IMG/VR virus record: IMGVR_UViG_3300005253_000560
Coordinates: 1 to 42,408 of that record
Direction: 5' to 3' (one strand)
Source of the DNA: a virus
DNA length: 42,408 nucleotides
Part shown: positions 1,935 through 19,664 of the stretch, in pieces
How the letters are laid out: every line of letters begins with the position of its first letter
Position numbering within the stretch: position 1 is the first letter of the stretch
Notes under the pieces: model-generated
Databases searched by the model: none
Seen by the model: only the letters and a program-made list of their open reading frames with translations
Told to the model about the DNA's origin: nothing
Made by a program: the position numbers and the translations under genes

Positions 1935-3343
1935 AAAGACTTGTTTTTATAATTTTGCTTTTATCGACAGCTGCACAGGCGGACATTAAGGTCATGGGCG
2001 ATGGCGAGCAGTTGATATGGAGCAATAACTCCCAGACAGTCTCTATCAGTGCATCCAGTTCAATGTCCGCCAGTGTAGATTATTTATGGCCGGTGGCCGA
2101 CGCTGTCTCCGGCGGGCAGGCCTTGCTTTCTGATGGTTCGGGTCTTTTGAGCTGGGGTACGCCGACAACTTCGACGGCGCATAATATACTGTCTGGTACG
2201 CACGATGCCACTACCAACGCGGTCACAAGGGGCTCGATAATTTACGGCAATTCCACACCCAAGTGGGATGAACTGGTAATAGGGTCTTCCGGGACGATTT
2301 TGAGAAGTGACGGCACAGATGTAGTGTGGTCGGCGACAACTAACATTACCGCCCTGGGTACCATAGTGACCGGTACCTGGAACGCCACGGCCATAGATAT
2401 TTCCAGTTATACCAACCTTACGGTCACCGGTCCCATAACTTTGACTGACGATACTGTCGGAATTACGATAGCCAAGGACATTGTCGCCGGTACCGGCCTT
2501 TCGGGCGGTGAAGACAATGTCCTGCCGGGCGCGGACGCAGATACTACTTTGACTTTTGACGCTACTGAACTCGATGCAATTATCTGGTCGGACGGCGTCA
2601 ATGCTTCGAACGCCTGGACGTTCAATGTTTCCGGTACGGACCATACAATGACCGCCGGCAGTGCGAAAATGACTTTCAGTAACGAGGTCGAAGCCGAACA
2701 GCTCAGCTCTACCGATGATGCTACTATAGCAGATAATACTAACACCGGGAGTTTATACGCCGGTGCCGCGGGTGACCGAGTTGAAATAGATGCCGTTGGC
2801 GATGTTGACTTCATCGGTCAGTCAGGTTTGGCTTTCGGTGAAATATCAGTAGAATCAAACGCAGTTGAAACCACGATAAGCACACAAGATGTACCCGTCC
2901 AGGTAACCGTATTTGATACCGCCCGCCATTCCAATAACACAACCATCAGTATCGCGAACAGTGACATAACCATATTACAGGCAGGTCATTATTTAGTTAC
3001 TGTATCGGCGGCGGTCAATTCTGTAGCAGGGTTGGGTTCGAAACTCGAACTTAAATGCAGGGTGAATAATGGAAGTTTTGACGCCATTCCACACGCAGAC
3101 AGAAACCTCGGAGGGGGTGCAGCAGAGGCTGGTTCTATAACATTGTCAGGAATAGCCGATTTGGACACAGGTGATACGATCGAGATATGGATAATAAACG
3201 AAACGAATACAGCCAATTATGTAGTTGAAGATATTTCCATGGCCCTTGTTCAAATTGGCGGGCCGATAAGAGATACTATGATTTATGAGGATGGAGATAC
3301 GATGATTTATGAAAACGGCGACACTATGGCGTACAATATGTAA
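1931..3343 (+). CDS. Sec-exported tail-fibre-like protein with C1q/TNF-like domain
   Basis: The GTG at 1931 is preferred over the longer open frame from 1880 because it overlaps the previous stop (GTGA) and places a clean signal peptide at the N-terminus: K-R, a run of hydrophobic residues, and AQA before DIK. The mature ~450 residues are T/S/G/D-rich beta repeats typical of phage fibre shafts (for example the LGTIVTGTWNATAID type). Residues ~307-441 resemble a C1q/TNF-like jelly roll, with HSNNTTISIANSDITI, then AGHYLVTVSAAV and a closing strand MALVQIGG. The last ~22 residues are three near-identical GDTMIYE-type repeats. It should form trimers if the jelly-roll reading is right. A signal peptide on a virion fibre is unusual. 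The product may instead be displayed on the host surface. Confidence 0.75.
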   Translation: MKRLVFIILLLSTAAQADIKVMGDGEQLIWSNNSQTVSISASSSMSASVDYLWPVADAVSGGQALLSDGSGLLSWGTPTTSTAHNILSGTHDATTNAVTRGSIIYGNSTPKWDELVIGSSGTILRSDGTDVVWSATTNITALGTIVTGTWNATAIDISSYTNLTVTGPITLTDDTVGITIAKDIVAGTGLSGGEDNVLPGADADTTLTFDATELDAIIWSDGVNASNAWTFNVSGTDHTMTAGSAKMTFSNEVEAEQLSSTDDATIADNTNTGSLYAGAAGDRVEIDAVGDVDFIGQSGLAFGEISVESNAVETTISTQDVPVQVTVFDTARHSNNTTISIANSDITILQAGHYLVTVSAAVNSVAGLGSKLELKCRVNNGSFDAIPHADRNLGGGAAEAGSITLSGIADLDTGDTIEIWIINETNTANYVVEDISMALVQIGGPIRDTMIYEDGDTMIYENGDTMAYNM

Positions 3344-17923: not shown

Positions 17924-18514
17924 ATGGTAAAAGGATTTACACACGAATCGACTTATAACGAATCGGTTGAGTGGTACACACCGAGAGAGGTATTTAAGGC
18001 TTTGGGTATAGAGTTTGATATTGATCCTTGCAGTCCGGGTTCAGAGATAGTTCCCTGGGTGCCCGCCACAAAGCATTACACATACTTAGATGATGGTCTT
18101 AGTTTTGATTGGGACGGCCGGGTGTGGATGAATCCCCCATACGGCGGTGAGACGAAAAAATGGCTTAAGCACTTATCAATATCTGGTAACGGGATAGCTC
18201 TCATATTTGCCCGGACCGATACGAAGTGGTTTCACGAATATGTTCCGGATGCCGATGCGGTGTGTTTTATTAAGGGTAGGGTCCAGTTTATAAAATGCTG
18301 CGTAGCGGGCAGATATGCTAGGGGTCAGTACAATCCCAAGACCGATTATTTCGTGGATCCGATAGATGGTAAAAGGAAGAAGGGTGGATGTGGTTCGGCC
18401 TCAATGCTGATAGCTTACGGAAAGGAAAATGCAGAGGTTTTGTATCGTTGTAATCTGGGTTTAACAATGAACCCCCACCAAGCCCCCGCGGCGAGCGGAG
18501 TAAGATGTGGATAA
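17924..18514 (+). CDS. Phage DNA N6-adenine methyltransferase (PF05869-type)
   Basis: A 196-residue protein that should transfer methyl from S-adenosylmethionine to adenine N6. Family markers are visible: EWYTPREVFKAL at residues ~16-27 (target side), DIDPCS at 32-37, and the catalytic NPPYG at 70-74. It is followed by ALIFARTDTKWFHEY and ADAVCFIKGRVQF, both typical of the phage Dam family. Its length matches the family. It is the first of three methyltransferases in a row, so the phage DNA is probably protected against several host restriction enzymes. The last codons overlap the cytosine methyltransferase start and carry a GC-rich boundary repeat (APAASGVR). Confidence 0.88.
   Translation: MVKGFTHESTYNESVEWYTPREVFKALGIEFDIDPCSPGSEIVPWVPATKHYTYLDDGLSFDWDGRVWMNPPYGGETKKWLKHLSISGNGIALIFARTDTKWFHEYVPDADAVCFIKGRVQFIKCCVAGRYARGQYNPKTDYFVDPIDGKRKKGGCGSASMLIAYGKENAEVLYRCNLGLTMNPHQAPAASGVRCG
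18482..18501. repeat. GC-rich boundary repeat, copy before the cytosine methyltransferase
   Basis: GCCCCCGCGGCG then AGCGGAG. The same sequence, with four extra bases, occurs in inverted orientation at 20591-20616 on the other side of the dcm-dam pair, and in part at 10520 and 31331. The GGAG part serves as the ribosome site of the downstream gene. Confidence 0.55.
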
Positions 18515-19560
18515 TACCGAAGAATTTAGAGGTATCAGCCTGTGTTCGGGATACGCTGGGCTCGAAATGGGAGTCAAGCGAGCTGTCCCTGCTCTTAGAA
18601 CGGTCTGTTATGTGGAGATCGAAGCCTTCGCTTGCGCGAACCTGGTTAGTAAGATTGAGGCGGGTCTCCTGGATGCGGCCCCTATTTGGACGGATATTAA
18701 GACCTTCGATGGCCGGCCATTTCGTAACAGGGTACACATCATCACTGCCGGTTATCCCTGCCAGGGGGAGAGCGTTGCCGGCAAGCGGCTCAAAGAAAGA
18801 GACCCTCGATGGCTTTGGCCGCATATTGAAAGAATCATCGAGGCAGTTAAGCCTGTTTGGTGCTTCTTCGAAAACGTCTCAGGACACCTTAGCGGTGGAT
18901 ACCCCACAGTTTATAGAGGCCTACGCAATTTGGGTTACAAAGTTGAGGCTGGACTGTTTACAGCGGCAGAGATCGGCGCGCCTCACAAGAGAGAGAGGGT
19001 GTATGTCCTGGCCCGGGCCATCAGTTATGGACGCTGCGGGATTTTGCGGCAAGCCGGACAAGGGCAGGATGGGCCCCAACAGCGGAAGGACCTTAACAGG
19101 CAAGGCGTTGGAGATGGAAGGGAAAGGGCCCCATGCGAATTGGCCAACACCAAATGTTCCGAACAGGGGCAAGGAACTATCAAAGAAACACAGGCCGAAA
19201 TCAGGCGGGATAGATTTGCAATCGAAGGTATGGGCAACACCAAACACGCGGGACCACAAAGGACGGGACCTGGAATCTCGGCAGGGGTCGGCGAGTTTGC
19301 CTGGCCAGCTCCTCCAGGATGGCCCCAGTATGAATGGGAAGAGCCGAGGGTTGTGGCCTACAACAAGCGTAAGCGATGCAGAGGGCGGACCCAAGAAACT
19401 ACCGAATCCGACAACAAGGATAAGCAAAACAACAGGGACAAGGTGGGGCGCAAAACTGATGGATGTCGCAGCGTACCCACAAGCAAAGGGCATGTTAAAT
19501 CCCGACTGGGAAGAGCAGTTAATGGGACTAACTGTAGGGTGGACAGACTTAGACTCTTAG
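18505..19560 (+). CDS. Overlapping-frame ORF inside dcm (WPTP-repeat type protein)
   Basis: A 351-residue frame starting at ATG 18505. This ATG overlaps the dcm GTG (ATGTG) and uses the same GCGGAG site. Its second half carries NWPTPN, VWATPNTRD and LWPTTSVSD, and ends LNPDWEEQLMGLTVGWTDLD. I recall this repeat-plus-ending pattern from phage proteins annotated near or within cytosine methyltransferases. The repeats lie exactly over the LANTK/GNTKH segments of the dcm frame, and the ending lies over its RVDRLRLLGN motif. Conservation could therefore be imposed by dcm. Either this is a true dual-coded gene or a long shadow frame. No function can be stated. Confidence 0.4.
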   Translation: MWIIPKNLEVSACVRDTLGSKWESSELSLLLERSVMWRSKPSLARTWLVRLRRVSWMRPLFGRILRPSMAGHFVTGYTSSLPVIPARGRALPASGSKKETLDGFGRILKESSRQLSLFGASSKTSQDTLAVDTPQFIEAYAIWVTKLRLDCLQRQRSARLTRERGCMSWPGPSVMDAAGFCGKPDKGRMGPNSGRTLTGKALEMEGKGPHANWPTPNVPNRGKELSKKHRPKSGGIDLQSKVWATPNTRDHKGRDLESRQGSASLPGQLLQDGPSMNGKSRGLWPTTSVSDAEGGPKKLPNPTTRISKTTGTRWGAKLMDVAAYPQAKGMLNPDWEEQLMGLTVGWTDLDS

Positions 19561-19664
19561 GCAACGGAGTTGTACCGCAGCAGGCGGAATTAGCGTTTAG
19601 GGTGCTAACCAGCACTTTTGCATCCAAAGAAAAGGCCGCAAAGCGGACTAACCGCAAGGAATGA
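18507..19664 (+). CDS. dcm: DNA cytosine-5 methyltransferase
   Basis: A 385-residue protein starting at GTG 18507, six bases after GGAG. C5-methyltransferase motifs are in order: LCSGYAGLEMG (SAM site, residues ~12-22), AGYPCQGES with catalytic C85, FFENVSGH (E122-N123-V124), and APHKRERVYVLA (the R-x-R at 162-164). Near residue ~350 is RLRLLGNGVVPQQAE, the conserved motif X end. The region between (~170-340) is variable, with LANTK- and GNTKH-type segments, and would hold the target-recognition part. It modifies phage DNA to resist restriction. The same DNA is open for 1056 bases in a second frame that begins two bases earlier; see the next entry. Confidence 0.9.
   Translation: MDNTEEFRGISLCSGYAGLEMGVKRAVPALRTVCYVEIEAFACANLVSKIEAGLLDAAPIWTDIKTFDGRPFRNRVHIITAGYPCQGESVAGKRLKERDPRWLWPHIERIIEAVKPVWCFFENVSGHLSGGYPTVYRGLRNLGYKVEAGLFTAAEIGAPHKRERVYVLARAISYGRCGILRQAGQGQDGPQQRKDLNRQGVGDGRERAPCELANTKCSEQGQGTIKETQAEIRRDRFAIEGMGNTKHAGPQRTGPGISAGVGEFAWPAPPGWPQYEWEEPRVVAYNKRKRCRGRTQETTESDNKDKQNNRDKVGRKTDGCRSVPTSKGHVKSRLGRAVNGTNCRVDRLRLLGNGVVPQQAELAFRVLTSTFASKEKAAKRTNRKE

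Follow-up and report, generated by a model that had tools for sequence, protein, structure and literature searches.

The small subunit of the C5-cytosine DNA methyltransferase M.EcoHK31I is encoded in another frame inside the large-subunit gene, as a short nested ORF of 176 amino acids. Both M.EcoHK31I and M.AquI are established two-polypeptide C5-methyltransferases, and one published account (PMC3404938) describes how each is divided. There, the large subunit of M.EcoHK31I (Lee et al. 1995) is given motifs I-VIII and X, only motif IX resides on the small subunit, and both polypeptides are needed; the recognition domain (TRD) is predicted to lie in the large subunit, which is not a proven defining feature. 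The same source assigns motifs I-VIII and part of the variable region to M.AquI alpha, and the distal variable region with motifs IX-X to beta. Concealment of a protein within a methylase gene is also known from ShiLan, where an HNH insertion lies out of frame in a phage methylase (PMC11855218). M.EcoHK31I is the closest known case to the locus considered here. None of the plasmid or E. coli matches could be identified as that enzyme. Our literature search found no paper that describes the overlap as a family, most subscription journals being outside its scope.

The locus lies in the viral record IMGVR_UViG_3300005253_000560, of which positions 1 to 42,408 were analysed; this whole stretch of 42,408 nucleotides is called the window below. 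A gene for a P22-like portal protein (PF16510, 31950-33977) marks the window as belonging to a tailed phage, probably podovirus-like. Three DNA methyltransferases follow one another in it, the overprinted C5 enzyme having a Dam enzyme (PF05869, 17924-18514) directly before it and one of the D12 N6-adenine type (PF02086, 19669-20619) directly after. The C5 locus consists of two plus-strand frames, B, which opens at ATG 18505 and runs to 19560 (351 amino acids), and A, which opens at GTG 18507 and runs to 19664 (385 amino acids). They overlap for more than 1 kb, nearly the whole length of both. An earlier note on this DNA had proposed a dual-coded gene here, and its coordinates and peptides for the two frames, each longer than 1 kb, are correct. 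Each B codon is made up of bases 2 and 3 of one A codon and base 1 of the next, so that no A wobble base can change without altering B.

The two starts overlap as ATGTG (18505-18509, plus strand), inside the last codons of the upstream Dam gene, which ends at 18514. A Shine-Dalgarno-like GGAG (18497-18500, plus strand) stands 4 nt before the ATG of B and 6 nt before the GTG of A, in the context GGAG-TAAG-ATGTGG (18497-18510). Judged by position, both starts can draw on this single site, as the earlier note had supposed; its function and its shared use by ribosomes are inferred. The -2 offset of ATG and GTG is the commonest layout among relatives, found in 78 of 85 B-selected unique loci and, among the matches listed, in 46 of about 91 A-selected ones. 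In bacterial relatives the B start mostly falls 4 bases after the A start, e.g. ATGAATGAGCTGG (28 of 48 loci).

The A-selected relatives were picked by frame-A motifs, a choice that is unbiased for openness of B, as the best 80 by A similarity among the matches listed. In 77 of the 78 unique loci of this set frame B ran open for 250 codons or more (median 378 codons), against a median of 47 codons and 0 of 78 loci with at least 250 in the other forward frame, again among the matches listed. When synonymous codons were permuted within each gene, 5.3 B-frame stops were expected in the window, which has none, and not one of 300 shuffles was stop-free. Across 85 A-selected relatives among the matches listed, the mean number of B stops per gene was 0.06, compared with 4.52 expected from shuffling; the other forward frame showed no deficit (15.6 observed, 16.1 expected). 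Stops in the B frame of relatives, which would have refuted the idea of a second gene, are therefore essentially absent. A search of viral contigs with B gave 61 loci, most of them matching along full-length frame B and in the same phase as their methyltransferase. The possibility of a chance open frame is ruled out by the openness in A-selected relatives together with the codon shuffling.

Openness alone does not describe how the two frames have evolved, and substitutions were classed by their effect in both, using independent pairs; in the two-letter classes the first letter refers to A and the second to B, N being nonsynonymous and S synonymous. Flanking genes of the same loci, with control ORFs chosen mechanically, served as controls, and B-selected loci contributed to some of the pairs. 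In the 5' half, which covers motifs I-VIII, 88 pairs gave an NN/NS of 0.57 (0.52-0.61) against 0.83 (0.76-0.88) in the flanking controls, and an SN/SS (changes silent in A that alter B, relative to those silent in both) of 0.37 against 0.80. With divergence matched at 80-90% identity, SN/NS in the N-terminal half was 1.97 (1.79-2.17) compared with 6.19 (4.91-7.51) in controls. Above 90% identity the control NN/NS also drops, to 0.49 and from few changes, which makes SN/SS and SN/NS the safer measures. The 11 pairs specific to the window's own relatives agree with the wider set (5' half, SN/NS 1.42, 1.30-1.55). In the 3' half, 34 pairs gave an NN/NS of 0.33 (0.26-0.40) and an SN/NS of 0.48, so that B is the main selected frame there; B-silent changes are about twice as frequent as A-silent ones, the opposite of a normal gene.

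The start region and the broken loci bear on the same question. Around the starts, A wobble positions, which are B second positions, belong to the best conserved sites, and B third positions are variable; over 142 loci the start peptide of B (WIIPKNL and variants) takes 41 distinct forms, compared with 84 for that of A. Where A is dead, B has a pN/pS of 0.13-0.17 in close pairs. B is under purifying selection along its whole length, and purifying selection in both frames fulfils the criterion for a same-strand overlapping gene, translation of B being inferred. Neutral evolution of B, the other outcome that would have told against the earlier note, is not what the substitution tests find, and its suggestion of a long overprinting conserved in many phages is borne out. 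Some observations count against a reading of A and B as two subunits: window-specific pairs in the 3' half are too diverged for a good test, and A in the linker region is still open in most relatives and weakly constrained.

Frame A is readily recognized as a C5-cytosine DNA methyltransferase. It matches PF00145 (8.6e-29) and has motifs I, IV (PCQ), VI (ENV), VIII and X. The catalytic domain with motifs I-VIII (PCQ, ENV, PHKRER) occupies 18525-19031 and motif X (LGNGVVPQQAELAF) 19557-19598, both on the plus strand, and these motifs form near-invariant columns in relatives. Between them, at 19050-19526 on the same strand, a mostly predicted disordered linker under weak constraint in relatives (w_A 0.69) replaces the TRD. 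The AF2 model of A follows this division, with pLDDT mostly above 90 at residues 1-175, mostly below 60 at 182-340 and 86-96 around motif X, and its Foldseek match to M.HhaI extends over only about 175 residues (E 5.8e-14). The A chain does not include a TRD and motif IX as well: of 91 A-selected loci among the matches listed, none shows the IX pattern in A, and 82 show it in B.

What A lacks is found in B. Three plus-strand repeats, WPTPN (19141-19155), WATPNTRD (19231-19254) and WPTTSVSD (19354-19377), are followed by LNPDWEEQLMGLTVGWT (19495-19545, plus strand). As first noticed in the earlier note, WPTPN lies on the LANTK segment of A, WATPN (from 19231) on GNTKH, and GWTDL on RVDRL. The last B segment follows the pattern LNPxWVExLMGxPxGWT, whose core residues reach 90% conservation or more in a set of 105 B proteins. 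We read it as motif IX because of a profile match to single-frame methyltransferases (E=8.8e-6) and of the motif order in the single-frame phage methyltransferase of RitaG, in which one chain runs from motifs I-VIII through LLPTP and RLTAAFPEWMMGWPAGWV to GNGVCP (X); in that of CheeseTouch the parts follow in this order too, and its LLPTP segment is weaker. BLAST connects the RitaG methyltransferase to Corndog gp6 (6e-27), Vash beta to Pseudomonas beta (2e-17) and Pseudomonas beta to window B (5e-8). Moreover, phrog_1008 ('DNA methyltransferase', 329 positions) matches B residues 78-349 (1.4e-16), and its C-terminal end also matches the motif X part of A. Upstream, over motifs I-VIII of A, B has an N-terminal domain (MWIIPKNL ... 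E.S.MWRSKPS..TW ..., 18505-19014, plus strand) with helices predicted at low to moderate confidence. Frame B has no match in Pfam or NCBIfam, from both of which its homologues are absent, and a sequence search of the PDB gave none. AF2 models B alone poorly (mean pLDDT 57), so the recognition domain is supported by homology and selection, not by structure. These gaps also weigh against the two-subunit reading. Since B holds the recognition region and motif IX that are missing from A, it is most likely not an unrelated second protein, and the two frames are most likely two subunits of one enzyme.

The division is not the same in all relatives. In the window and others of its type (type 1), A has motifs I-VIII and X, and B the recognition region and IX. 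In a second type (L072, L074, L075, and Vash and Corndog-type phages) A goes no further than VIII, and X is on the B-frame product as well; the annotated overlaps of Vash and Corndog-type phages are shorter. Motif X is also on B in L072 and L060. In a third type, the L020 group, A is broken and X lies on a third ORF, in several cases with AAGGAG before an ATG. Five loci (L027, L033, L034, L044, L055) have a broken A and motif X on an ORF of its own, whose ATG in several cases has an AAGGAG-like site ahead of it, and from their sequences may possibly encode a three-piece methyltransferase. Past motif VIII, A is full of TAA, TAG and TGA in nine loci (L020, L030, L033, L034, L044, L055, L072, L074, L075), and in the same nine B stays open over 329-524 codons. 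Because all three stops are present, recoding of a stop codon is excluded for the lineages in which A is broken. A is broken in two in about 10 lineages, which would need a third polypeptide, and this too counts against the two-subunit reading. In L025, L057, L058 and others B continues beyond the A stop with its own tails. B in L054 (2001-3449) and L058 (2001-3767) apparently has a second, downstream copy of the motif IX and recognition segment. Within the class of the Pseudomonas locus, a phrog_1008 match was found in 10 of 274 sampled genomes, several of them with internal stops.

In our view the two frames probably specify a split C5-cytosine DNA methyltransferase, with overprinted alpha and beta subunits and a common ribosome site. 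Openness, conservation, selection on both frames and the division of motifs are direct observations; there are no ribosome profiling, proteomic, complex or activity data, and translation of both frames, use of the shared site, assembly and activity are inferred. Ribosomes at one Shine-Dalgarno site would initiate at the ATG to make beta (B), or 2 nt further on at the GTG to make alpha (A). Alpha would fold as the catalytic domain (I-VIII) and motif X, joined by a disordered segment in place of the recognition domain, and beta, its N-terminal domain overprinted on the catalytic domain, would provide the recognition region (WPTP..D repeats) and motif IX in trans. Jointly, the two would methylate DNA, presumably the phage's own. 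With less assurance, though still on balance, we favour a widespread class of such enzymes, having one ribosome site, overlapping or adjacent starts and a full overprint of more than 1 kb, in which recognition was moved to the second frame by an ancestral frameshift, the N-terminal domain of B arose de novo over the catalytic domain, and some lineages came to use three polypeptides.

Other explanations must be set against this one. Towards the end of motif VIII, a programmed +1 frameshift of the ribosome could fuse the catalytic half of A to the recognition half of B and leave the N-terminal frame of B untranslated. Single-frame relatives join exactly these parts, and B dominates selection only past motif VIII; however, B has its own start (MWIIPKNL) and an N-terminal half that is open and under selection, and because most loci have motif X in frame A, the ribosome would have to shift a second time to return there. 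By eye, no conserved or shared slippery sequence was seen at the frame change among the broken lineages, whose A stops fall at varied positions, although no systematic scan was made. Frameshifting seems to us unlikely. We are similarly doubtful that B is a real overprinted protein but no methyltransferase subunit, for example an unrelated regulator or an anti-restriction protein. The absence of any known relative of its N-terminal domain and of any Pfam match leaves room for such a product, but the C-terminal part of B resembles single-frame methyltransferases in their recognition region and motif IX, the very parts missing from A, and the presence of motif X on B in L072 and L060 also speaks against it.

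It remains conceivable, but very improbable, that B is an untranslated shadow, kept open by the way the methyltransferase gene uses its codons, by its composition or by constraint at the nucleotide level. Composition-biased genes can indeed yield long open +1 frames, yet the codon-shuffle test and the substitution tests with flanking-gene controls reject this origin, B extends past the A stop with its own tails in several lineages, and it is intact where A is dead. The earlier note had offered a widely mis-annotated shadow frame as its second possibility; selection on B disposes of the shadow, and only the inconsistent annotation stands. At this locus, the Synechococcus phages Ssp-JY39 and Yong-M2-251 give identical tblastn results, yet the CDS is placed in frame B in the former and in frame A in the latter; these conflicting annotations correspond to loci L078 and L082. 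In phiBT1 only the A part, gp9.1, is annotated, with the remark 'may be inactive'. At about 1560-2330 of the phiBT1 locus (L300), an unannotated +1 frame overlaps and then follows gp9.1 and encodes the recognition region, IX and X. In a Paenibacillus phage (L080), both overlapping frames (2080-3150 and 2282-2986) are already annotated as DNA-cytosine methyltransferase.

Selection maintains the arrangement in many phages and bacteria, and annotations usually show it as a single gene. If the split enzyme is real, it ranks with the longest same-strand overprintings known from prokaryotes and their viruses, one subunit is missing from many annotations of phage and bacterial C5-methyltransferases, genes labelled inactive such as phiBT1 gp9.1 may be active, and cloning or recoding A alone would silently destroy the enzyme. 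The forms make up a series, from single-frame through short and full overlap to broken alpha, on which the birth of a subunit by frameshift can be tested directly.

Compared with M.EcoHK31I, the window likewise has motifs I-VIII and X on one polypeptide and IX on the other, and its second polypeptide likewise lies in an overlapping reading frame, as judged from sequence and selection. It differs in that the TRD, predicted in the large subunit of M.EcoHK31I, is placed in B by selection and homology, and in that B, whose start overlaps that of A (ATGTG), spans almost the whole of A, in contrast to a short nested ORF. With M.AquI the window shares a C5-methyltransferase split after motif VIII into two polypeptides, but it keeps motif X on alpha and its frames overlap by more than 1 kb; L072-type relatives, in which beta has motif X, are closer to M.AquI. 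ShiLan also conceals a second protein in the other frame of a phage methylase gene, there a mobile endonuclease inserted in some genes, whereas in the window it is a conserved subunit along the whole gene. The annotation shown for phrog_1008, for its part, says nothing of members overlapping a second methyltransferase frame. The locus is set apart from these systems by frames that overlap along their full length, by starts that overlap or adjoin, by a recognition region placed in the second frame, and by the wide distribution of an arrangement of which often only one frame is annotated.
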